DNA from: Microthyrium microscopicum
Lineage: Eukaryota > Ascomycota > Dothideomycetes > Microthyriales > Microthyriaceae
Assembly: GCA_010405405.1 (NCBI GenBank)
Contig: MU004231.1
Location: 1,695,386-1,759,385, forward strand
Length of the DNA stretch: 64,000 bases
Direction of reading: 5' to 3'
Shown here: one piece after another, positions 41,420 through 58,648 of the stretch
Position numbering within the stretch: position 1 is the first letter of the stretch
Layout: every line of letters begins with the position of its first letter
Translations under genes and position numbers: made by a program
Notes under the pieces: model-generated
Told to the model about the DNA's origin: nothing
The model's database searches: none
The model's input: only the letters and a program-made list of their open reading frames with translations

Positions 41420-43953
41420 ACCGTTTTGCTGTATTTCTGGAGCTCTTTGCATGCTATATCACCGCTTGCTTTTACGTATTCTACCATCAGATTCGCACCC
41501 CAGCTAGACAACACCTTTTCAAGATTGCCGCGCGGGTGTTCTCATTTAGCTTTGAGCAATAGAGTTCTCCGTGATATGAAATTTTCAAAGCAGAATAGAC
41601 AAGTTCCAAGGTTTCATGCTTTTTGCAGGTGTTGTTTTCTCCGTGGATCTGTTGTGTGGAGTGGTGGAACTGGTTCAAAAACTTGGAGCAGCGAATCACC
41701 ATGCCAATGTACTTGAAAAGAAGCTTTGGCTCCTCTGAGATCAAACAAATGCGCATATCTTTGAGGATTTGAAGTGAAGTCAACAGTTTTGCGCTTGTGG
41801 GGTTGTCTTGCAACAGAATAGGACTCAATATCTCGGCAGTATCTCCTCCTATGGTGAGCTTTTGCTGCTGCTTGGGTTTGGCACTCGAGTAATGATTCAA
41901 AGCATCTACAGCAGCAGCATTGTATGGCATCTTAGCATCATTCACAATGTCCTCTTGGCAGGCCAAAGCAAATGGTGTTGTGGATTGTACCATACGTGTT
42001 CCACGTTTTGAACATCGAGAAATACCCTTTCGAGCGTTTTTTGCCGTGGTAGCCAAAGACATGCCATAGAACAATTGAAGCTTATGGATGCATTCTTTCA
42101 AGCCTTGGGGTCGGCCGTCCATGAATATGTTTTCCTCGTCATGCAGTTTCAAGAATTCTTCTAGGTCTGCCCAATCGACAAATGATGTCGCGGTAGTCGT
42201 CTTCATTATAGAATAGAGATAGAGGGTTGGAAACACGGTGGCCCACCAAGCGCACGAAGTCCATGATGCTGCAACATCTGTTGCATGCGGTACATGGTAA
42301 GGCCTGCAACAATTGGGTTCCCCTTGTACAGATAGAAGTTCTCGAGGCTAAGCCGCTCCATCATGTCGTCTTTGTCGTCAAGGATCGTCTCTAGTATGAA
42401 CTTCCTAATCTTTGTAGAACCATTGTTCAAGTAGTCACGGGTGATTTTCGTGCAATAGACTTTGGGTCGCCTCTCGATCAAGATCTGTCCACACTGGAAC
42501 TGGAACTTCTATCTCAAACTTCGCGAGTGCAGTAAGCTCGTTTTTTGCCTTTTGGGCTGCTACTTGAAAATTCTCAAACGGGTTGTGCGGACTGCTGGCT
42601 AGGATGTCGCGAACATAAAATATGATCTGGGCGCAGAAGGCATGCCAGATGGTCACCTTTTTGGTTGTGTAAGCTTCGAAAATGCTCGCTTCGGCCTCGC
42701 TCATCACTATCGAATGAACTTCCGTCCTGAACCAAAGGGTAGCCTCGAACGAGTAGTCGTACAGAGCATTCTCTTTCTGTATCATCTGTGATTCCCAGGA
42801 AAGTGTCCTATGTGGTGCTTTTAGGTGTTTGTTGGTGTCTTCGCGCCAGTCAGCAAATAGAGGCAAATTATCGTTTGCCGTTAGCTCCTTTATAACATTG
42901 CGGACACAAGCATTAGTGCGATACAACGGAATTTCTCGCGAGCATTCCTGTTCAAGACTGAAGACATCTTCAAGATGATGTTGTCGCCAAAAGTCGATGC
43001 CTTTGGTAAAAAACGTGTCCGTAGACACCGAATTCGCCAGATGGTCCCAGTCCGCAAGCAAACGAACGTCTAGTGCGATGACCTCTTGAATCAGCTCCCG
43101 CGCTATAATCAAGGCCGAATTTGAAGTAACGCTTTCAGCCATAGCATCCAACTGACCAGCAGCATAGTCCTCCCAAGTACCCTTGATAAACTCCCGGAGG
43201 TTTCTCAAATCAACAAACAAGCAGTAAGCGATGAGATTCTCCTCTGCAAACTGTTGATCATGATCAATCTCAACCTGAAGATTCTTGCTCTGTTGCTGGA
43301 ATTGTTTGCTCCCCAAGATAGGCCTTTTGTCAAAATCGGACCTTGTAATAGCCTCAGTATGTTCGCGTTCGTTATGGTTGATAGCAAGGGTTGCGAAACG
43401 ATTGGAGACCGGAAGCACAAGTTCCTCTTTTGTTTTTGGAGGTTCAGTTGTTGATATCTCATGACCATGCTGAGAGTATTCGTGGGCTTCGCGTGTATCA
43501 TTGGAGAACGAGAGGAGTTCGACAGTACTCTAAGACTTCTGTCAGCAGCTTGAAACCCTGTCATGGAAGGCATCGCGGAAGAAGCTCATGCGATAGGACA
43601 GGGAGAGGATCAAGACAGTACCTACCTTCAGAACTGAGATGAAATGATCATGACCAGAATTCGATTTAGTATCATTGCTAGCTTTCTAAAAAAAACTTGG
43701 CACATTGGACTCGCAAAGCTATGGCATTAGCCACAGCTGTTTTGATTGACGATGGAAGGGGAATCCTCGCTCGAGCGATAGTCTGGGCTAGAACTTGGTA
43801 GTCGCGAGGGCGGATGTTGGTGGATTGGCCTGGCCGGTCTTTCACTTCGATGACCGTGCCACAAACCGCTGCCTTCGCTACTAACCAAGTGTTGAAACGA
43901 TTGGTATCTGCCTTGTGACGATCGTAACTGCCAGCGAGATTGTCCGGCAGCAT
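41420..43953 (-). pseudogene. DUF6604-like paralogue, copy A (decayed)
   Basis: Exon 1 is 43953-43626, exon 2 begins at 43529 after an intron in the same place as in copies B-D. The start SYDRHKADTNRFNTWLVAKAAVCG is the family N-terminus. Later family blocks are all found in order: SNRFATLAIN, GNPIVAGLTMYRM, FPTLYLYSIMKT, WADLEEFLKLHDEENIFMDGRPQ, CLISEEPKLLFKYIGMVIRC, and GDIACKELQKYSK. They lie in different frames: about four frame breaks are seen, near 43685 (next to a run of eight A), between 42435 and 42481, between 42206 and 42236, and near 41500. The original stop is gone and the remnant stops against the epimerase gene. Sequencing errors could explain one homopolymer break but hardly all. 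Its upstream inverted-repeat element is intact. Confidence 0.78.
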
Positions 43954-44064
43954 TTTGCGTCGTAAAATCTGGTGGTCTACTTGGTGGAAATGGTGCTTAG
44001 TGCGGTATAGAGTGTGTCTACCTAGGTACCTAAGTTACACAGGCAAAGCAATTTCGGGCTAACA

Positions 44065-44105
44065 AGGCTGAAGTATTGACCAATCAGCTGGGCAGCCTTA
44101 TGGCG
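44065..44105 (-). promoter_or_regulatory. Array element 1, copy A: inverted repeat around CCAAT
   Basis: Read on the plus strand: AAGGCTGA, 7 bp, ACCAATCA, 6 bp, CAGCCTTATGGC. AAGGCTG and CAGCCTT are exact inverted arms around the CCAAT core. It starts 112 bp before the ATG of the decayed copy A. Confidence 0.85.
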
Positions 44106-44628
44106 AGCATCGTGGTAGAATGTGGGGGTACCTCGCGCCAAGATAGGCGCGATCGTGATTCGTGTAAAGTTACCCTCGTGTCATACCTGTGTGCTGTATG
44201 TACCAGAGGCCTGAGAATAATCCAATGGGCAGCTCACTGGAGTCCCTTTCATGGACAAAATTGCCGGCGCGCTCTCATCAAGTTAGATCCATGTCATCGC
44301 CCTGTATGGCGAAAAGATGCTTCGAATTTCAGCGGGTTGGAGGCGGAGTGAAGGGTCCTGCGCATTCAATGTTGAAGTTTATCAGATTGTTGACATCGTC
44401 TTTGTAGGCAGAATGGGCCGAATCATTAACCTCGCACTCGATTGATCCTGCCGTGGACTTTGTCGACCAGAAGTAACTCAGTGAGCTGTACCAGTTTGCC
44501 AAACTTTGAATGATCTCCATCAAGTACAACCATTATGAAGGAAGCAGCTTCAGTCCATGAGAATCTGTTGCAAGATGATAAGCTTTCTTTAATGTACAAT
44601 GATTTTGGTCTCCTGATACACATGGAGT
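44106..44628. other. Spacer between copies A and B with second shared element
   Basis: The segment AAGATAGGCGCGAT (44141-44154) recurs in the upstream regions of copies C and D in the same relative place. The remaining 470 bp should include the 3' untranslated region of copy B; nothing else was recognised. Confidence 0.55.
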
Positions 44629-47124
44629 CTAAGAGCTATTCGATCTTCCCTTTTTGCCAAAAGCACGGAGTTCCTTACACGCAATGTCCCCTTTTGATTC
44701 AATGTAGCTGTTCATGGTCTCCGTCGCTGTCCTCAGCAGATGTTGCTCTGTACCCATCATGGCCAGGGTTCCGACAAGACCTCGCGGCTGCTTTTGACAA
44801 GCGGATATGGCTCTCAAGGCCCGGAACGCGTCTAACGGGTGTTCATATTCAGTCATTGCAAGACTCAGTCCGAATTGCTCTATAAAAACCTCGCTTAGAC
44901 CATCATGGATTTGACGCAGGAACGTGAAGCAGCGGATTGTCAATCCGAAGTAGTTGAAAAGCAATTTGGGCTCTTCACAAGCTAAGCGTTCTCGCATTTC
45001 CGTCAAAATTTGTATTGGCTGGCGATAAGTGTCGTGTCTAGTGTATAGCTTCGCCACACTGCCCTGACGGTGAGGCACTGTCTCGACTTTGCTGAACGTA
45101 ACATTTGTCAAGAAAGGACTACTCGGAGACTGAGAGAACTCTTTGATAGTGGCAGCCAAAAGAGAGTTGGGAAGATCGTCGAACAGAGCTTCCAGTGAAG
45201 CAACAGCCAATGGCGTCAGGCTTTTCACTCTATGCGGCTCTTCAGGTAGATTCGAGCTGACCGTCGGCGCAGTGCTATCGTTCCGGCGATAGAACTGGTC
45301 CAGCTTATCCACACATTCTTCTAGATTTTGAGGGCTTTTGCCCATGAAAAGGTTATCCCTGTCGTGATGTTTCATGAACTCCTCGAGATCTGGCCAGCTA
45401 ATGTTCGCTCTCCGGGTATCAACTTTGAGCAAAAAGTAGAGATACATGGTTGGAACAACAGCAGACCATCTGTCCAACGCTATCAGCCCAAATTTTTGTG
45501 CTCGAAGATTCATGGAGTACAGTATAAGACCTGCATCAATGGGATTGGTTTCGAACTTGTGAAAGTGCTTGTAAGCGTTTGGTCTCTTGGTGTCCATGAT
45601 AGTGTAATGTTCCATGTCGTTGAGAAGGCCTTGAATAACCTCATCGGCTTCTTTTGGCCAGGAAAGACTGCAAGTTTTCGAGGTGAAGTCAAGAAAAGTG
45701 GCATAATTCTTTTTTGTTCTGAAAGCCGTCATTTTGAGGTCGATGAAAGGGCTTTTCTGAGTGCCTGATAACGTGCTGTGGATATCAATTAAGATTTGGA
45801 CACTAAACACGTGCTTCAGTTTGAACTCTTTTGTTTCCATCACTTCTAAAAGGCTGGCCTCAAGCTCATTTCTTACGGACGATGGGACGCGCAGAACATG
45901 TCGAAGCCGGATTTCATCAAGAGCATCCCATAAGACACGCTGCTGATAGGCATACTGCTCGTCGGGGTTTCGCTTTGTGTCTGCGACCTTTGAGAGAGCA
46001 AGAACAATCTCACGCAGCTCATGATTCGGGAAGACGTCGGGATTAGCCGTCACTGCACGCACATATCCTCCAAGATGTAGACGCGCAGTCATCAACGTGC
46101 GGTCTGCAATATCGCGGACTTGACTAGCAAATGGGTGCTGAGAAAATTTTGGCTTTTTCTCCCAGGCATTATGGCCACCCTGGGCACATAGCATACAATA
46201 GAGAGCTCTTGGTAGATCCGCACAATCTGAGAATGACTTGTGCTTTTCTCCCAAAAACGCTTCTATGCGCTGCTGGCCTAGAGTTAAGGACGAGTTTGAG
46301 ATGAGGCTTGCGGATGCAGCATCGATCTTGTCGTCAATATATTCTTTCCAAGTCTCTTTCACAAATTGGCGTAGTTTGTTCAGATCGATCATAAGACAGT
46401 AGAGGGCCATGGCCCCGTCCAGATATTTCTCATCAGAATCCTCCTCAATCTCAAAGGGCAAGGTTGTTTGCGGTTCAACTTTGGCGGTCTCATGATCTGA
46501 CTTGATCATCTGGGCGGTGGTGTCAGGATCAAAACTCTCGACGTTGGTATCATCAATGGCCAGCCGTTCAAAATAACTAGGCTCAGGAACCGAAGAATCG
46601 TTCTTTGTAGGCGAAAGTGGTGCGACTGGCTGGCCAACTTGGGGATCCGTCTCAGCATTGTTGGGGGCCTTGTTAGAGCTCAAGTCTCTGAGAGCGTCCT
46701 ATAAGGATATTAGTCAAACTTTTCGCAGATGCCAATTGACACCATCTCTTCATTCAGCCATTATTCGGAAGAAGTGAGTACGACTTACTTCTAGAACAGT
46801 GATGAAGTGAGCATGATTAGAATTTGATGACTTGTCCTGTGATGTAAATCGGAAAGCCTTCGCACAGCGTGCCCGCAACTTTATTGCTCGTTCCAAGACA
46901 GCTTGGATAGAAGAGGGGAATGGAACACCAGCATCGACAACCGCTCTGACTAGAAGTGGATAGTCACGAAGCAGGATTGTTTGCCGCTTGCCGGAGTGTT
47001 TTTTGGAGGATTTCTTGTTCAGGGTAGTGCCGCAGCTGGCTGCCGTGTCAATTAACCAGCGGGTGAAAGCAGCAGTGTCTGCCTTGTACTGGTTATAAGA
47101 GCCGATGAGCGATATTGGAGGCAT
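44629..47124 (-). CDS. DUF6604-like paralogue, copy B
   Basis: Two exons, 47124-46789 and 46698-44629, give 801 residues. Exon 1 encodes the DUF6604-type head (SYNQYKADTAAFTRWLIDTAASCG ... CAKAFRF ... HAHFITVLE). The phase-0 intron falls right after ITVLE, as in every copy. Exon 2 begins DALRDLSSNKAP and has a disordered linker (about 113-190), then a long helical region with PLLVR..., TNPIDAGLILYSM, VPTMYLYFLLKV, WPDLEEFMKHHDRDNLFMGKSPQNLEECVDKL, CEEPKLLFNYFGLTIRCF and the C-terminal KGDIACKELRAFGKKGRS. No enzyme motif, transmembrane segment or signal peptide is seen. ATG 47124 (MPPISLIGSYNQYK) is used; the longer open frame upstream starts on TTG. Function unknown. Confidence 0.8.
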
Positions 47125-47218
47125 CTTGACGCTCCAAAATTGGTAATTTTCATGGGTGAGGGTGTGAAAGTGCGACAAAACTAAACTTTGTAGGCAGTGA
47201 CGAACAAGTCGAAATTGT

Positions 47219-47258
47219 AAGGCTGAAAATTTACCAATCAGCTATGCAGCCTTATGGC
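47219..47258 (-). promoter_or_regulatory. Array element 1, copy B: inverted repeat around CCAAT
   Basis: AAGGCTGA, 6 bp, ACCAATCA, 6 bp, CAGCCTTATGGC on the plus strand. The arms extend to 8 bp (TAAGGCTG/CAGCCTTA). It begins 95 bp before the copy B ATG. Confidence 0.85.
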
Positions 47259-47481
47259 CACAGGTAGGCAACACCCCGCTCACACGCACGCGCTGCATCT
47301 GATGTGAATCGAATGTGCATGTAGGGCATGTCCCACTAATATCAAAATTACTCGTGGTCATGGTTCTGTTTATCATTTACCGGTCTTGTTGCTACAGAAG
47401 GCTCAAAGTAGCACCAGTTGCGATGCGATTAGAACGAGAGGGGTAGTTTTCTTTCGAAAACTTCTTGATTTCTACCTGATT

Positions 47482-50206
47482 CTATTCCTTGGAACTTTCG
47501 ACACCACCCAACTTCGCTTTTCTGCTAAAAGCTCGTAATTCTTTACAGGCCTTATTCCCGTTATCCTTCGCATGTTTTGCCATGATCTTGGCGGCTCGCC
47601 GTAGATACTCCGTGTCCGTCAAGCTACCGCGCATACGCAGGGACTGGGATAACGTTTCGGACTCTACAACTGCAGCCAAGGCGTAGATGAGAACCACCAA
47701 TGGTCTATACCCACTGCTTGGAATAGACACATGTGGCGTGTACTGCTCAACCACGCGACACCCGGGTTCAATGAGTTCTTCCAAGAAAGCAGCGCAATGA
47801 AGACTCAATCCGTAGTAGTTGAAAATGAGGTCCGGCTCCTCTGTCATCATTTGATTACGCATTTTGGTGAGAAGCTCCATCGCCGTGATGTATTTGTCGC
47901 TGTTCTCCGAGCTACTCTGTTTTCTATTTCTTAACGGTTTAGACGGAGCTTCTTCTGCTTGATCATCTTGGCTGGTGTTTGGAATAGAGCGCAGGCAATG
48001 GAAAACCTTCTCAATCATGTCCACTGAGTAATCCACTGCCAGACCACTTGTTCCCATTGCTTTTAGGAATGTTAAGGCCATATGAGCTGATGATTTAACC
48101 ATCATACAGCGTTGCTTGAGTGATCGTTTGACTACACCCGGTCGAGCGTCCTTTGCCCATGAGCTAGCTTTGGCTCCATGAAATATCTGAAGCTTCTTGA
48201 AGCATTCTTGGAGGTTAGCTGGCTGGCCGCCAATGAAGATGAAGTCCTCGTTATGTAATCTTAGGAATTCTTCAAGATCTGGCCAATGCACCTGAGCCGT
48301 GTTGGGAGTAATCTGGAGAAGACGATAGACATAAAGGGCAGGAACAACCGCCCCTAGCCCTGCGAGGTAGGCCATGCCATCCCTATGAACACTTAGGCTA
48401 ATGTCGTACATGGTGAGGCATGCATCAATTGGATTGGCTTTGAAATGATAGAAGTCTTCGTGAGGGCCGACTTTATCGCAGTGCCGCCATTGAGCAGCAA
48501 TTGGATCGTTGATGTAGAGGTTCAAACTGTTGAGAAAAGCTCGACAATGATCTTCGTGGCCTTTTGACCAACTCGGATTGGAACGAACTGAGGAGAACTT
48601 GAAATAAGCACCGATATTTTTTTTCGCTCTCAAGACGGTCATTCGTAGATCGTTGTAGGGACTGTGTGGGCATCCTGCGATAGTGCTGCGTATGTCTAGA
48701 AAAACCTGGGCGTTGAAGGCATGCCATATTGAGACTTTTTGTGTTCTCAGCATGTCACGCATACTGAGTTCAATTTCACTCTTGTTCTGTATCCCAGAAG
48801 AGTAATCGCAAAACATCCCGAATTTCGATTCCTGAAGTACGTCGAAAAGCACCATCCAAGAAAACTCCCACTTGTCTCTTGCAGATCGGGCCTGGTATTC
48901 GATGCTTGAGGTTGCAACTGTTGCTTTACGTGCCTCATCGAAGTCATATAGTATTGCATCTTGACGATTGTCGAGCTCAAGTAGACACCTATTGAGAAGC
49001 ATGGTGGTATGCCTAAACGTCCTCTCGGCTATACTGAGAACTTGGTAGTTAAACCAGTCTCCGGCTTGCTCTGGTTTGTAAGCGTCGTATCCATCATACA
49101 AAGAGATCGCTGTAAAGAGGATATGCGAAAGGTTATCCCAGCTTCTAAAGCAACGATAGTTGGCTGCGATCAATTCTCGCATAAAAGTTCGTCCTAGTAC
49201 CTGAGTTTAGTTAGTAAGAAATCTCCAAAACACAATACGATTATTGTCAAGGTCAGTTGGAATACAACTCAACCAATTTGGCAAAGACTCCAACGTTGAT
49301 TGGAGAATGATCCGAGACAAAGAGAACTTACCAATGCTGCATTTGTAGTGACGCCTGCAGTGATGGCATCAATACTACCATCGACATATCCTAGCCAGGT
49401 TTCTTTCACAAATCCTCGGAGATTGTTCAAGTCGTATAACAGACACCAAACCTGGAGGAGGTCTTCAGTAGCTTCGTCCTCACCGAGACTTGCGCTGAAC
49501 TCTGGAGGATTCTTCCCGGTACTAGTGTTATGAGATTTCTTCTGGCTGACTGGGATGCTTGCATGGACGTTTTCGCGCTGATCCTGTTCATTGTGATCTC
49601 CGTGCTCAACCGACAGGGCTTCAAAACGGTTGACCATTGAAGGCACTTTGTGATTCTTGACGGAGAGGTCGGGCTTGCCCTGATATATCTGATTCCTGAA
49701 GGAATCTTGGAGCATGCTCGTGTTTATACTGGAAGGCTTGAGATGCTCGAGTGTGTTCTATAAAGTTCATCAGTCAATGAAAAGTGTGCGATATATAGGA
49801 CTTAAAGAAGCGGGATACGATAACAAAAATAAATTAATGGCATAGGGAAGACAGATTCAGAAGGGATATTTACCTTTAGAACAATTATAAAGTGATCATG
49901 CCCGTTGTTTGATGTTATGTCGTCAGAATGGGCTCGAAAAGCATTTGCGCATTGCTCTCGAAGGGATATAGCTCGTTTTACGGCAGCCTCGATTGATGTT
50001 GGGAGCGGGATATTTGCCTTAGCAATTGCTTGCGCAAGAATGGGATACTGGCTAATTGGAAGGATGTGAGGTGGAGTTAATTGGTTTCCAACCGGAATGC
50101 TGAGAGTTGTGCCGCAACTCGCGGCGGTTTCAACTAACCAGGTAGTAAAATGGTTGGTATCAGCCTTGTAACGACAGTAGCTCCCAGTAAGATCTTCTGG
50201 AAGCAT
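47482..50206 (-). CDS. DUF6604-like paralogue, copy C (extra intron)
   Basis: Three exons, 50206-49874, 49757-49332 and 49200-47482, give 825 residues. The head MLPEDLTGSYCRYKADTNHF-TWLVETAASCG and HDHFIIVLK are as in the other copies and intron 1 sits at the shared place. Exon 2 begins NTLEHLKPS and carries the VNRFEALS linker motif and FVKETWLGYVDGSIDAITAGVTTNAAL. A second, phase-0 intron of 131 nt (GTAAGT, TTACTAACTAA branch, CAG) follows and has no counterpart in A, B or D, where the protein runs on (SNSAL-ELI). The rest follows the family: ANPIDACLTMYDI, VPALYVYRLLQI, WPDLEEFLRLHNEDFIFIGGQPANLQEC, TEEPDLIFNYYGLSLHC, NGNKACKELRAFSRKAKL. Function unknown. Confidence 0.8.
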
Positions 50207-50440
50207 GATGCCTTGCAGGGCAGGATACCGAGTTAGTGGAAAGCGTGATTGGAGTTTGTTATGGAGTTTGATATTGAGTTTGATATGAAGTTTAATGTAG
50301 GTTTTTGGGAGGAGTCTGGTGCCAAATGACTGGACTGGGTAAGAGGTGGATATTCGGTGGGAAGTAGGTCTTTGGGGGAAACATGTTGTAGTCGGGCAAA
50401 TATGTAGGAAGCAACCTTAAGATTGACCAGTGAAGATTGC

Positions 50441-50480
50441 AAGGCTGAGAATCAACCAATCAAATGTGCAGCCTTATGGC
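50441..50480 (-). promoter_or_regulatory. Array element 1, copy C: inverted repeat around CCAAT
   Basis: AAGGCTGA, 6 bp, ACCAATCA, 6 bp, CAGCCTTATGGC on the plus strand. It begins 235 bp before the copy C ATG, farther than in the other copies; a stretch of TTGATATTGAGTT-like short repeats (about 50240-50300) fills the difference. Confidence 0.85.
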
Positions 50481-50509
50481 TGAAGCGTGGTGACAAGGGC
50501 ACGCCACGG

Positions 50510-50523
50510 AAGATAAGCGCCAT
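50510..50523 (-). promoter_or_regulatory. Array element 2, copy C (GATA/GCGC motif)
   Basis: AAGATAAGCGCCAT lies 29 bp beyond element 1. The same motif occurs at 44141-44154 and 53777-53790. Confidence 0.6.
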
Positions 50524-51105
50524 CAACTCCGGATCTCTCTTCAAGCTTCTTCTACTCATCTTCGAACTCGTTGACATTAATCGGTTCTTCAATCTAATAC
50601 TCCTTATTATTAGAGATACGAAGAAGTTTTTCCTGATTACGAGTTGAGACAGTTTGTCAAAAGCTCTTTAGAAGGTCACTGCCGTCTCATTGTCATCAGC
50701 TGGAGTTGCAGTTCTAAGAGATTCATCAGCTCTTTTGTTAGTAAATGTGACTTCCAAAAAACAGGCGTCAAGGCGCAACTAATAGACCCAAAGCTTGTTC
50801 GGCCCGATGGTATTCAGATAATGCGATAGACTGCTCAGTTAAAAAGTGTTATGTTTTCCAACACGCGCAACAACTCTCAGGATGATTGTGAAATACAACG
50901 AGAAGTAGTGTATATGGTATAAATGAGTAATCATGGCCGGCTCGATACTTCACATGAGATAATATAAACGATCGGAAAGGTCGCACTTGAAACAGGTCAG
51001 GATTATTCGATAAAGTCGCTGACTGAATAAAAAAACGGAGTACTATTCCAAAGATAGCTGGGACGGGGACAGCAATTACTTCTTGATTGCTCTCAATTTC
51101 TATAC
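50524..51105. other. Spacer between copies C and D
   Basis: It should contain the 3' untranslated region of copy D. No other gene or repeat was seen. Confidence 0.5.
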
Positions 51106-53592
51106 CTAGGCGGTTTTGAAATTATCCAGCTTCATCTTTTTGCTGAACGTACGCAATTCATTGCAGGCAATACTCCCATTGCGTTTCGCGTAGTCCGCCA
51201 TCAAGCTTGCGACCTTTTCTAGGAAATATGGCTGACGACCATCCTCGAGTGTCTCCACCACCTTATTCAGAATGTGCCGCGAAATAGTGAGCACGGCGTA
51301 TTCCCCTGTGAGATTGCTGGGCAGGCCAGCATTGATCAGGCGGTCCTCCATGTGACGATGGAGCTGTTCCGAGAATTCAAAGCTTCGAATGCTTAGGCCG
51401 ATGTAGTTGAAGATCACCTTTGGCTCTTCGCATGCCATTGCGTTTTGTAGGAGAGTCAGGCTCTCGATAGAGTCATTGCATTGTATGATCTTCTTTACCG
51501 TTCCAAGCGAGTATGGAGTCCCACACCCAGTTTGGAATGCATTCATGAAGGATATCGCAAGCGGCGTCGTACAATGGACCTGGCGTTGCCCGTTTTTCGA
51601 ACGTAATCGAACGCCAGATCGGGCCTTGTTCTTCATATAAACTAGGGACAAGCCAAAGAATAGCCGCAGCTTTTTATAACTGTCTTGAACATTACTTGGC
51701 CGTCCACCGATGAAAATGGAATTTTCGTCATGCAATTTCAGAAATTGATCAAGGTCTGGCCAGTCTGGAGTGTGTGGCATGTTCATTGTTTTGAGAATCG
51801 AGTAGAGGTAGATTGTAGGAATGACGGTTATCCATCTATTGAGAACTAAGATCCCAACTTTCTGCATTGTGCAGCTAAGATGGTACGCGGCGAGCCCTGC
51901 AGCAATGGGATTGACTTGATAGTGGAATGAAAGTTTCTGACCAAAGCCTGGTTGTGGAAACCACATTTTTGCGTCGTCGATATATTGCTGTGTCTCACGG
52001 TGACAGACTTGTGCCCAGTCCTCCTCTGTTTTTGTCCAATAAGGACTTGACTTCTTGGAGGTGAATTCGAATAATTTGGTGAGATTCTTCTTCGACATGA
52101 GCGCAGCTAAGCGCCAATCGTTAAATGGGTTATGTCGCTCTCCTGATAAGATAGTGCGCACATCAAGCAAGACCTGTGCGTTGAACGCGTGCAAGGTGTT
52201 GACATTATGGGTATCCAACATATCAACCAGGTTCTCTTCGATCTGGCTTTTCACCGGTGGGAAAACCTTGAACATATTCGCAAGTCTAAGTCCGTGGACG
52301 ACATCGTGAAGCAATTCCTGGTCTTCACGATATCTTTCTGGAGAAGCATCTTGTTTGCATGGCTTGGTCGAGCGAAGTTCGACCGCATCTCGAACCTCGA
52401 AGGTGGGGATTTTTCGAGAAGTCTTCGGAAAATCACAAAGAAGTTGTCTCAGCATCCCATTTGTGGAGAAAAACGTCCATGTCGCAACGTCATAAACATT
52501 TTCGCTGAAAGAAGGAAATGGTTTGGTATCATCCCAAGGTTCCTGGCCTCGTTGTTTGGATATTAGCCCAAAGAAAAGCTTTGAGACAGACTTGCCGTTT
52601 GAAAATAAGGGATGACCGACGGCGTCAAAGGCATTGATGAGTTCGCGCCCTTCAGCAAGGGCTGAATTCGAAGTAACGCCAGCAGTCATACTATCTATGC
52701 TTCCTGAGGCATACGCACACCAAGTATCCGCGATGAATTGGCGCAATTTATTGAGCTCCACAAGGAGACCAAAGCCTGCAAACAACTGATCAAGGAACAT
52801 TCTCGAATTGGGGGTAGCATCGGACTTTTCAGCAGACTGTGGCTTGGATATGGTCGCCTGGACGCCTTGGACGGTCGGTTTGGTTGTCTTTGCGGTGCAT
52901 TCGGTCTCAACCGCTTTGGAGTCGTCTTTTTTTATGCTTATTGCGGCAAAACGGTTAGAAAGCGAGTTGTCGTTCACGACAGGCTTAGCCGAAGCCCCTT
53001 GGCTGGCTCTAATGTTCTGAGATCGCCTATTGGCATTATCGGAGACCTTGGTGGATTTGAGACATTCAAGCGCATTCTAAACAGTGTTAGCTCAATTCAA
53101 TGCTGAAAGTAGACTTAATCAAGTCAACTTTCTGTCTGATCAAAGCGTTCAAACCAGCATATCTTAACGACGAGATGACAAAGTCATCCCCTGTGAAATT
53201 TGCTACTGCCTGTAACACTTTTTGAATTCAACGGAGAAGGAGAAGGAGAATGAGAAACACACCTGTAGGACGGTAATGAAATGATCGTGACCCTCGATCG
53301 AAGCGAGGTCTGGACAGTTGTTTCGGAATTCGGCGGCGCACTTTTCTCGTAGGACGATTGCTCTGCTTACTGAAGCTCCGATCGACAGCGGCAGTTGTAC
53401 TTTTGCTCCGGCAATCACCTGCGCAAGCTGAAGATACTCAACACAGCTGAGATCGTAAGTTTGGGTTGATCCATATTCCGCGCTGTTTTCAATCAACATT
53501 CCACAACTTGCTGCCGTCTCAAGCAACCAAGATGTGAAGATATCAGTGTCAGCCTTGTACTGGCAATAATTTTTGTAGAGCGAATCTGTCAT
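51106..53592 (-). CDS. DUF6604-like paralogue, copy D
   Basis: Two exons, 53592-53263 and 53076-51106, give 766 residues. The head (MTDSLYKNYCQYKADTDIFTSWLLETAASCG, GHDHFITVLQ) and the shared phase-0 intron (186 nt) are as in B. Exon 2 opens NALECLKSTK; the linker has SNRFAAISIKKDD. Family blocks: FIADTWCAYASGSIDSMTAGVTSNSALAEGRELI, NPIAAGLAAYHL, IPTIYLYSILKT, WPDLDQFLKLHDENSIFIGGRPSNVQDSYKKLRLFFGLSL, CEEPKVIFNYIGLSIRSFEF, NGSIACNELRTFSKKMKL. ATG 53592 is used; the longer in-frame start is a TTG. It is the outermost, apparently intact copy at the promoter-proximal end of the array. Function unknown. Confidence 0.8.
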
Positions 53593-53706
53593 TTTGGCTC
53601 GAGAGTCCTCCGCTGAAATTGTGTTTGTTGTTGGGGTGCGCAGTTTGGAGCAAGCTATACTCGAGAGGAACAAAACATATGGGGCGGTGATGGAGAAGTG
53701 AAGACT

Positions 53707-53746
53707 AAGGCTGAGCGTTCACCAATCAGTCGCGTAGCCTTATGGC
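53707..53746 (-). promoter_or_regulatory. Array element 1, copy D: inverted repeat around CCAAT
   Basis: AAGGCTGA, 6 bp, ACCAATCA, 6 bp, TAGCCTTATGGC on the plus strand, with one change in the right arm. It begins 115 bp before the copy D ATG. Confidence 0.85.
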
Positions 53747-53776
53747 TGGAAGGTGGCGACATGAGCATGCGGTGCT

Positions 53777-53790
53777 AAGATAGACGCGAT
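53777..53790 (-). promoter_or_regulatory. Array element 2, copy D (GATA/GCGC motif)
   Basis: AAGATAGACGCGAT lies 30 bp beyond element 1, matching the positions in copies A and C. Confidence 0.6.
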
Positions 53791-54146
53791 TGAGGTTGCG
53801 TCTTCAGCGTGCAAGTCTGCTACTTGTAACTCCATGGCACCTCGCCAATGCTAGTCATTTCTCTTCACCTCATGCGGCAATATGCCGCTAATAGGGCTTT
53901 GCAACATATTACGTCGAATGCAGTTACAATGAGGTGCAGTCTTTCGAGCTGACCATGATGTCTTTGCCTTCTATTAGTCACTGAGACATGATGTAGGGGA
54001 AGAGATAAATACTATTGCAGGTAAGCGGTCAACCAAATAAATGGAACGCTCCCATCAGAGCTTTGACTTCCATCTGCTACCTTAGTACGCTTTGTTGTTG
54101 ACTCCATAGCAGAGCCAAATCCTTGTCAACCAGAGCGGGCGTATTC
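53791..54146. other. Intergenic, nothing recognised
   Basis: About 350 bp left of the MDR oxidoreductase stop, presumably its 3' flank and the distal promoter of copy D. Confidence 0.5.
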
Positions 54147-56790: not shown

Positions 56791-58648
56791 TCATGAGGAA
56801 CGGTTTGTGGACGCGGCAGGAGTAGCGCCAGCGTGATCGTCTCGAACATGTCTATTCACTAGGACCTTATTAGCAAGGATATTATGTAATTAAAAGAATA
56901 CCAGGAACATACTGTTGTCTTTGCGCGTAAAAGACTTGATGCAGTAGGCGCAGTTGAAGTTCTTATGCCCGGAATGCGTCGTCAAATGGCGTCGCAAGTC
57001 TTTCGGGTACAAGAAAGTTTTATCACACTCGGTGCAGCGGTGAGACCGATCATGAGAAACGCCAGCTTCTGATGGAGCTCTAGACCGAGCTGCTCCGCGA
57101 CGCCGACCTGGGCCGGAAACATGACTGTGTCCAGATATGCTGGGTGTTCGTCTCCTGTTGACTCTACCGGCAGGAATTGGATGTGGAGCATGGAGCATGG
57201 AACGATTAATGATTCCAGTTGGGTTTGATGGTTGTCCAGGGGCAGAGACTGGGCGTGGTTGTGCCAAAAGGGCCTCTTTGTAGGAAGGTTGTCTGGAATT
57301 TTCATATGGAATAATGGCAGCCCAACGATGAGGGAATCCAGTGTCTTCACCCGATTCATCATAATACAACCAAAGGGTTGACACAGACTGGGGCGATAGT
57401 GAGGTGTGGATGGTAGAAATGTACGTGCCAGGATCCGAGGCTTTTGACACAACACCGAGCTGGAAACAAAGACCATTGCGGAGACAATAACTCTGTAGGA
57501 CGTGGTCAAGCTCGTTCGCCGTCACTGTGACGTTGTTCTGGGTCTTATTGCGGACACGGTGAGACTGTAACTCGTGATCGAGCTGCTGGGTCGTGGGAGC
57601 AACTTTATCGGCGCTAAGATTGACGCTAAGATTGAAGCTCAAAGTCTTTTGCAAAGCCTTGATAGCTCCTCCAAGGAGGTCGTTGTCACCAGTGCCATGG
57701 ATACGATATCCATCTGTATTGATAGATTGGACAAGGTGGTTTGCTTCTTCGAATCGTTCTGTTTGGTATTCTAGACGAAGACCTGGTCGGTCTCGTCCGG
57801 TGAAGTCGTTGACTGACAAAGGCAATCTCATATCCAGTTCCTCGTCAAACATGGAAGGCGTCGCTGAATCAGGTGTGAGCTCAACTTGGAAGCCGGGTGG
57901 CATGGATTCGTCGGTGTTGTCGCCAACATGGTGCATACTCCACGGCCCATCGAAAGCCTGGGTTTGAACAGCATTATATCCCGAAGGCCCTGGGAGTGCC
58001 GGTCCTATTATGGTTGGTGTTCGGAGTAGAGGAGTCTTCGAAAAGCTGTCGAGAGGGGTTGGTTGGATATGTTCAAAGTGGACGCCAAATGTGCTAGTTT
58101 GTGCATATTCAGACCCAACACCATATGTGTCGATCTGCATATTTTCGAAGGCATCCTTGAAAGTGGACTGACCGCTGTGATATCCTGTACCATATGCAGT
58201 GGACTGAGCGTTCTCGTGTCCTTCAGCAAATGAAGCCGAGAATGCCTGTTGTACGTTGCCGCCATATGAAGCAATCTGTGTCGGTGATGGACTGCCTCCA
58301 AATGAAGATGGTTGACCATACTCGGATTGAGGGGCATCAAGGGTTTGCGAATATGGTCTTGAGTGGACTGAATTGAGGGGCTATACGTTTTAGCTGTGAT
58401 AAATACGTAATAAGGTACGAGACAGGTACATACCGAAGTTGGCGATACTAAGAAGCTTGAACACTTAGGACAAGCTCCTTGACCACACGTGCACTCAGGT
58501 TGAGGAAGGTGGAAATGCTCTTCGACAGGGGTGTGATCAAGGGATAGAAAGGCTGGATTGACAAATCCAGAACGGAATTGCTAAGAACAAGTGAGTAAAA
58601 TGGTGTTGGGTGAAGCGACGGTAGGGAGAGTCATACCTCGTGCTCCAT
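56791..58648 (-). CDS. C2H2 zinc-finger transcription factor, two fingers
   Basis: Four exons (58648-58637, 58580-58434, 58380-56913, 56858-56791) give 564 residues. The first coding exon is 12 nt (M-E-H-E). The N-terminus has a Cys-rich ECTCGQGACPKC segment (about 24-35), then a Ser/Gln/Thr-rich region, then a central conserved part. Two fingers close the protein: CTEC-(12)-H-LTTH (about 502-521) and CAYC-(12)-H-VRDDH (about 531-553). The second is split by the last intron; among several AG acceptors only the CCTAG at 56861-56859 restores FTRKDNMNRHVRDDH with correct Cys/His spacing. The two fingers at the extreme C-terminus fit a sequence-specific DNA-binding protein of the fungal C2H2 class; targets are unknown. 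It is divergent from the DUF4246 gene. Confidence 0.87.

Follow-up and report, generated by a model that had tools for sequence, protein, structure and literature searches.

The locus analysed here raises the question of why four tandem genes should each carry the same short, gapped module in their promoters, and whether that module serves these genes alone. The window, a stretch of 64,000 nucleotides, corresponds to C2:1695386-1759385 of the 36.9-Mb, 20-contig genome. Open frames and Pfam place its four tandem minus-strand genes in family PF20253 (DUF6604), on which no paper was found in the open-access literature. The structure predicted for the DUF6604 protein of gene 4 from five segments of the window is helical throughout, with a mean pLDDT of 42.5 that is too poor for a fold search. 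Near the array lies a probable C2H2 zinc-finger gene (56890-58380, minus strand) with three Pfam zinc-finger matches, all of them below the curated cut-offs. The first 2000 nucleotides of the window form an AT-rich tract of 26% GC; elsewhere in the window, steps of 2 kb have 38-51%.

Structure and conservation of the module

Read on the plus strand, the module is AAGGCTGA-N6/7-ACCAATCA-N6-YAGCCTTATGGC; since the genes lie on the minus strand, its form in gene sense is GCCATAAGGCTR-N6-TGATTGGT-N6/7-TCAGCCTT. An exact pattern search without mismatches found four copies in the window, all on the plus strand and one upstream of each array gene (Table 1), and 0 in 100 dinucleotide shuffles. The original prediction of a four-copy module is thereby borne out, with the correction that copy 1 begins at 44064 and not at 44065. 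Also as claimed, the copies are identical at 27 of the 28 named positions, the exception being a Y (C, C, C and T in copies 1-4). The spacers, which measure 7, 6, 6 and 6 bp (spacer 1) and 6 bp throughout (spacer 2), had been described as free. This holds for most of their bases, but every copy has G as the final base of spacer 2 and one column of spacer 1 agrees in all of them when right-aligned; spacer 1 begins with A, A, G and G, and the other spacer bases vary. In gene sense, the likely ATGs of genes 1-4 lie 110, 94, 234 and 114 nt downstream of their modules, that of gene 3 having been read by eye; further candidate ATGs exist for copies 2 and 4.

Table 1. DUF6604 genes, module copies and second promoter block, in positions of the window
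Feature	Position	Strand	Description	Basis
DUF6604 gene 1	41487..43953	-	several exons; main open frames 42435-43529 and 41487-42347; PF20253; likely ATG 43953; limits approximate	
DUF6604 gene 2	44629..47124	-	main open frame 44629-46698; PF20253; likely ATG 47124; limits approximate	
DUF6604 gene 3	47482..50206	-	frames 49802-50416 (PF20253) and 47482-49206 (main; no Pfam match); likely ATG 50206; limits approximate	
DUF6604 gene 4	51106..53592	-	main open frame 51106-53076; PF20253; likely ATG 53592; limits approximate	
Module copy 1	44064..44104	+	AAGGCTGA-N7-ACCAATCA-N6-CAGCCTTATGGC; promoter of DUF6604 gene 1	exact pattern
Module copy 2	47219..47258	+	both spacers 6 bp; in the promoter of DUF6604 gene 2	exact pattern
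Module copy 3	50441..50480	+	both spacers 6 bp; in the promoter of DUF6604 gene 3	exact pattern
Module copy 4	53707..53746	+	both spacers 6 bp; right arm TAGCCTTATGGC; in the promoter of DUF6604 gene 4	exact pattern
75-bp right flank with second block, copy 1	44105..44179	+	GATA-type site AAGATAGGCGC	alignment of 75-bp right flanks
75-bp right flank with second block, copy 3	50481..50555	+	AAGATAAGCGC	alignment of 75-bp right flanks
75-bp right flank with second block, copy 4	53747..53821	+	AAGATAGACGC	alignment of 75-bp right flanks

The flanks are far from being as conserved as the module. Aligned without gaps over 150 columns per side, they are identical in all four copies in 6 columns on the left and 4 on the right, in agreement with the claim that they have diverged widely, although the right flank is partly conserved in three copies. 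Were each column to have a chance of 0.2 of being identical, far above the rate in the flanks, the probability of at least 27 identical columns out of 28 would be approximately 3e-18. In nine pairwise comparisons of paralogous coding segments pS was 0.72-0.80, that is, saturated, and amino-acid identity was 23-41%.

It is scarcely credible, given these values, that the module is the remnant of a recent duplication, of gene conversion or of a dispersed repeat. The genes are indeed tandem duplicates, with modules about 3.2 kb apart, but the divergence of spacers and flanks and the saturation of synonymous sites led to the rejection of all three. Membership of a dispersed repeat or transposon is further contradicted by the genome, in which no additional close copies were found and the right part of the module has only two further matches, with 2 mismatches each. 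Because 27 of the 28 positions were kept while the spacers and most of the flanks diverged and synonymous sites became saturated, the module is conserved by selection and not through recent duplication, as originally proposed. It is a real conserved promoter element, probably one bound by protein.

The partial conservation of the right flank takes the form of a second, weaker block centred on a GATA-type site, AAGATARRCGC, which is present in copies 1, 3 and 4 and absent from copy 2. When the 75 bp past the right arm are aligned with gaps, 11 columns are identical in all four copies, where 60 shuffles gave a mean of 4.8 and a maximum of 11; three copies or more agree in 41 columns, against no more than 34 after shuffling. 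Copies 1, 3 and 4 alone have 23 identical columns there, against a maximum of 16 in 60 shuffles.

The arms AAGGCTG and CAGCCTT complement each other and are paired in the predicted folds of copies 1 and 4, as would be expected of an RNA hairpin in the 5' leader. For copies 2 and 3, however, other folds are predicted, z-scores range from -0.7 to -2.0, copy 4 by inspection loses the innermost arm pair without compensation, and a hairpin leaves the conserved CCAATCA in its loop unexplained. With the arms pairing only in the predicted folds of two copies, this highly improbable explanation was rejected.

Distribution of the module and its parts in the genome

Genome counts were obtained by scoring the best candidates only, with very common words skipped, and may be low. 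When up to two mismatches were allowed, ACCAATCA-N7-AGCCTTATGGC gave six matches, namely the four exact array copies and the two imperfect ones mentioned above. The shorter ACCAATCA-N7-AGCCTT gave 31, against 11 for the reversed control; 26 of these carry one mismatch and five are exact, comprising the array copies and C1:4267846, the sole exact match outside the array, which is without TATGG. CCAAT lies within 19 bp of AGCCTTATGG at nine places: the four array copies, two with CCAATCA at gap 13 to TCAGCCT, and three in which CA does not follow CCAAT. The array right arm at the array distance, CCAATCA-N6-YAGCCTTATGG, was not found elsewhere in the genome. The left half, AAGGCTGA-N5/6-ACCAATCA, has six exact genome matches, all with N6, which are array copies 2-4 and three others. 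Scoring of the whole module over 52 loci gave, among the 80 matches listed, at most 23/28 outside the array (L034 and L006), followed by 22/28 (L021); these three loci were discounted as chance matches or, in the case of L006, as a product of selection by the search. As far as searched, the complete two-armed module appears confined to the array. Scatter across the genome, which would count against the original prediction, is seen for its components, widespread beside mixed genes, but not for the module as a whole.

A site here called X, TCAGCCTTRTRG / CYAYAAGGCTGA, has 213 matches in the 36.9-Mb genome (places were taken for the first 100 of the 213), against 7 for the reversed control and 17.6 expected with uniform bases. 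No description of X was found in the titles and abstract beginnings of the open-access literature surveyed, and it may be described elsewhere; searches of that literature for a CCAAT box with an inverted repeat, or for a CCAAT composite element, gave no match either. GGCT and AGCC are absent from the main text of an Aspergillus ATAC-seq study (PMC8419926).

The core of X is found close to CCAATCA in all four arrangements. AGGCTGA upstream of CCAATCA at gaps of 0-20 gave 59 matches (reversed control 4), among them the four array copies, every one of which has an X core no more than 20 bp from CCAATCA. Within 20 bp, CCAATCA upstream of TCAGCCT gave 82 matches (control 3), CCAATCA upstream of AGGCTGA 18 (control 3) and TCAGCCT upstream of CCAATCA 52 (control 1), the uniform-base expectation being 5.8 pairs per arrangement. 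The 211 pairs merge into 201 loci when those within 1 kb are joined and the four array copies are counted; the reversed controls total 11. AGGCTGA and CCAATCA may both be common in promoters, which would raise their co-occurrence, and only the spacing peaks described below argue against this.

The original prediction envisaged a dimeric factor on inverted arms. Such a factor is weakly supported: beside CCAATCA the X cores take all four arrangements, and they are also found alone or directly repeated, so that X does not have to work as an inverted dimer. Direct repeats of AGGCTGA with a 12-bp period lie beside a CCAAT box at C4:2255115, C8:1045462 and C10:1609873. CCAATCA is flanked by X cores on both sides at four loci outside the array (C1:2968222, C1:3830023, C8:205808 and C4:112126), in other spacings or orientations.

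A pair of X cores in opposite orientations overlaps in the sequence AGGCTGAGCCTTATGG at C2:3503888-3503918, 8 bp ahead of CCAATCA, and the open frame that follows encodes a cytochrome b5 domain.

The confinement of the complete module to the array would suit an element dedicated to these DUF6604 genes, at which a specific dimeric factor acts with the CCAAT complex. The pairing of the arm sequence with CCAATCA, however, is in use at about 200 loci beside mixed genes, and the three further DUF6604 loci outside the array (C4:186833, C10:243655 and C18:217964) show no module in the upstream 1 to 1.5 kb that was examined, nor does a close X-CCAAT pair stand in front of their DUF6604 frames. An AGGCTGA-CCAATCA pair at C10:242310 was considered as a DUF6604 promoter and rejected, as it precedes a different open frame of 335 aa. 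A dedicated array element is consequently improbable, and the DUF6604-only regulon that had been suggested is unlikely.

Spacing, consensus and surroundings of the sites

The distances between X cores and CCAATCA are discrete. Among the 82 matches with CCAATCA upstream of TCAGCCT, 19 have the form CCAATCA-N9-TCAGCCT and another 19 the form CCAATCA-N13-TCAGCCT; gap 6 accounts for nine and gaps 10-12 together for one. In 200,000 uniform simulations of this arrangement the largest bin reached 16. Six of the 18 matches with CCAATCA followed by AGGCTGA are at gap 9 (P 0.003), and where TCAGCCT precedes CCAATCA the largest bin, at gap 19, holds nine of the 52 (P 0.015). For the left-arm arrangement a preference for gap 7, which array copies 2-4 use, is only suggestive (8 of the 55 non-array matches, the largest bin; P 0.09). 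That fixed distances point to DNA-bound proteins, as had been argued from the array, is supported, and the genome-wide peaks are stronger evidence for it than the array itself.

The consensus was drawn from 30 of the 38 peak sites, all 19 at gap 9 and 11 of the 19 at gap 13. Beside RCCAATCA, it runs on as TCAGCCTTRT at the gap-9 sites and as TCAGCCTTRYAG at the gap-13 sites. The array uses neither of these gaps, its right arm being 4 bp closer than at gap 9. This arm contains AGCCTTATGG and looks like a gap-9 or gap-13 site with G plus Y in place of the TC of the genome-wide X; the left arm is the X core plus the purine that commonly follows it. With its right-arm spacing unique, G plus Y standing for TC, and the left-arm gap not significant alone, the array is best read as a variant of the X-CCAAT grammar and not as a typical case of it.

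The sites examined are mostly noncoding. An open frame of at least 150 aa covers two of the 30 peak sites, against 12 of 25 chance matches (Fisher P 0.0006), the latter being one-mismatch ACCAATCA-N7-AGCCTT matches for which loci were obtained in 25 of 26 cases. For the left-arm arrangement the corresponding figure is five of 26 loci (P 0.04), drawn from the 55 non-array matches and including two loci at the same place.

Pfam assigned a family, at E 0.001 or better, to 13 of 30 open frames that were picked near the sites, one of the 13 being a THOC3 propeller that lies below the Pfam cut-off. The other families included eIF3 zeta, eIF2B epsilon, Nop16, fructosamine kinase, cytochrome b5, Roadblock, catalase, glyoxalase and MAPEG. 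Some of these frames do not point away from the site, so that they give a picture of the neighbours and not a list of targets. At three loci (L093, L095 and L105) composite sites stand beside frames that by eye look of F-box type and have no Pfam family.

Candidate partners and proposed mode of action

A partner of the bZIP kind, such as HapX or Yap5, would make the module an iron-response element. The end of the arm, CTGA, could be read as part of a bZIP half-site. Fungal CCAAT complexes pair with bZIP proteins at a close, conserved distance; in Candida glabrata the Yap5 site lies 10-14 bp from CCAAT, and Yap5 fails to bind its target in the absence of Hap5 (PMC5471220). The present sites are like these in combining a CCAAT box with a second promoter site at a close and constrained distance. 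They differ in that the partner site is TCAGCCTTRTRG and not TTACTAA or a TGAC half-site, and in that X occurs in several discrete spacings, on both sides of the box and beside mixed genes. By inspection, TTACTAA occurs in none of the four modules and TGAC in copy 1 only, where it overlaps CCAAT; X, a site of 10-12 bases, is longer than a half-site, and none of the mixed named neighbours is an obvious iron gene, the haem enzyme catalase apart. The HapX/Yap5 bipartite element was rejected for want of TTACTAA or a conserved TGAC half-site, and a bZIP partner of this kind is very unlikely. By analogy, an X factor and the CCAAT complex would most likely follow the same logic as Yap5 and the complex in C. 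glabrata.

Two other systems invite comparison. The ERSE of animals, CCAAT-N9-CCACG, is bound by NF-Y plus ATF6 and resembles the present sites in having a single fixed spacing between the NF-Y box and its partner site. The main gaps found here, measured from CCAAT, are however 11 and 15 bases and not 9, and membership was rejected on the absence, by inspection, of CCACG and CGTGG inside the four modules. XlnR/Xyr1 sites (GGCTAA type) have a GGCT core beside a CCAAT box and are sometimes inverted; here the core is GGCTGA, with a 5' CYAYAA extension, and no xylanase gene was seen among the named neighbours of the sites.

The reading that we consider likely is a composite promoter element, used by the CCAAT-binding complex together with an X-binding factor, of which the array genes have kept a double-armed version since ancient tandem duplications. 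The CCAAT-binding complex (HapB/C/E, NF-Y type) would bind the central ACCAATCA. This complex prefers certain flanks of CCAAT, and favourable ones accompany the core here, ACCAATCA being found in all four copies and RCCAATCA in the consensus of the 30 sites. The genome has one match to NF-YA/HapB (PF02045, E 3.3e-28, C1:1234047-1234214), and the CCAAT complex with a flanking factor, as first suggested, appears to be the best reading. One or two molecules of the second factor would bind the arms, AAGGCTGAR on the left and GCCATAAGGCTR on the right, both of them putative versions of X. The fixed distances would allow the partners to touch, or to bind cooperatively on DNA bent by the CCAAT complex, and together they may act on the promoter, presumably in activation rather than repression, about 95-235 bp upstream of the start codon. 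At about 200 loci this pair may be at work in other spacings, and the two-armed version would have been inherited from the founding gene and retained through the old tandem duplications.

CCAAT boxes are among the commonest elements of fungal promoters, and to our knowledge little has been established about partners of the CCAAT complex outside iron and respiration control. We tentatively propose that X (TCAGCCTTRTRG) may be bound by a general regulatory factor, hitherto undescribed, of this fungal lineage, which would partner the CCAAT complex at about 200 loci, with two or three stereospecific registers allowed; the array would then be a frozen two-sided register, the surroundings of which have nearly all turned over. 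A motif that accompanies the CCAAT box at exact, discrete distances in about 200 places offers a testable handle on such a factor. The four array promoters provide a natural record of which bases matter, in which 27 of the 28 named positions have survived and most of their neighbours have not.
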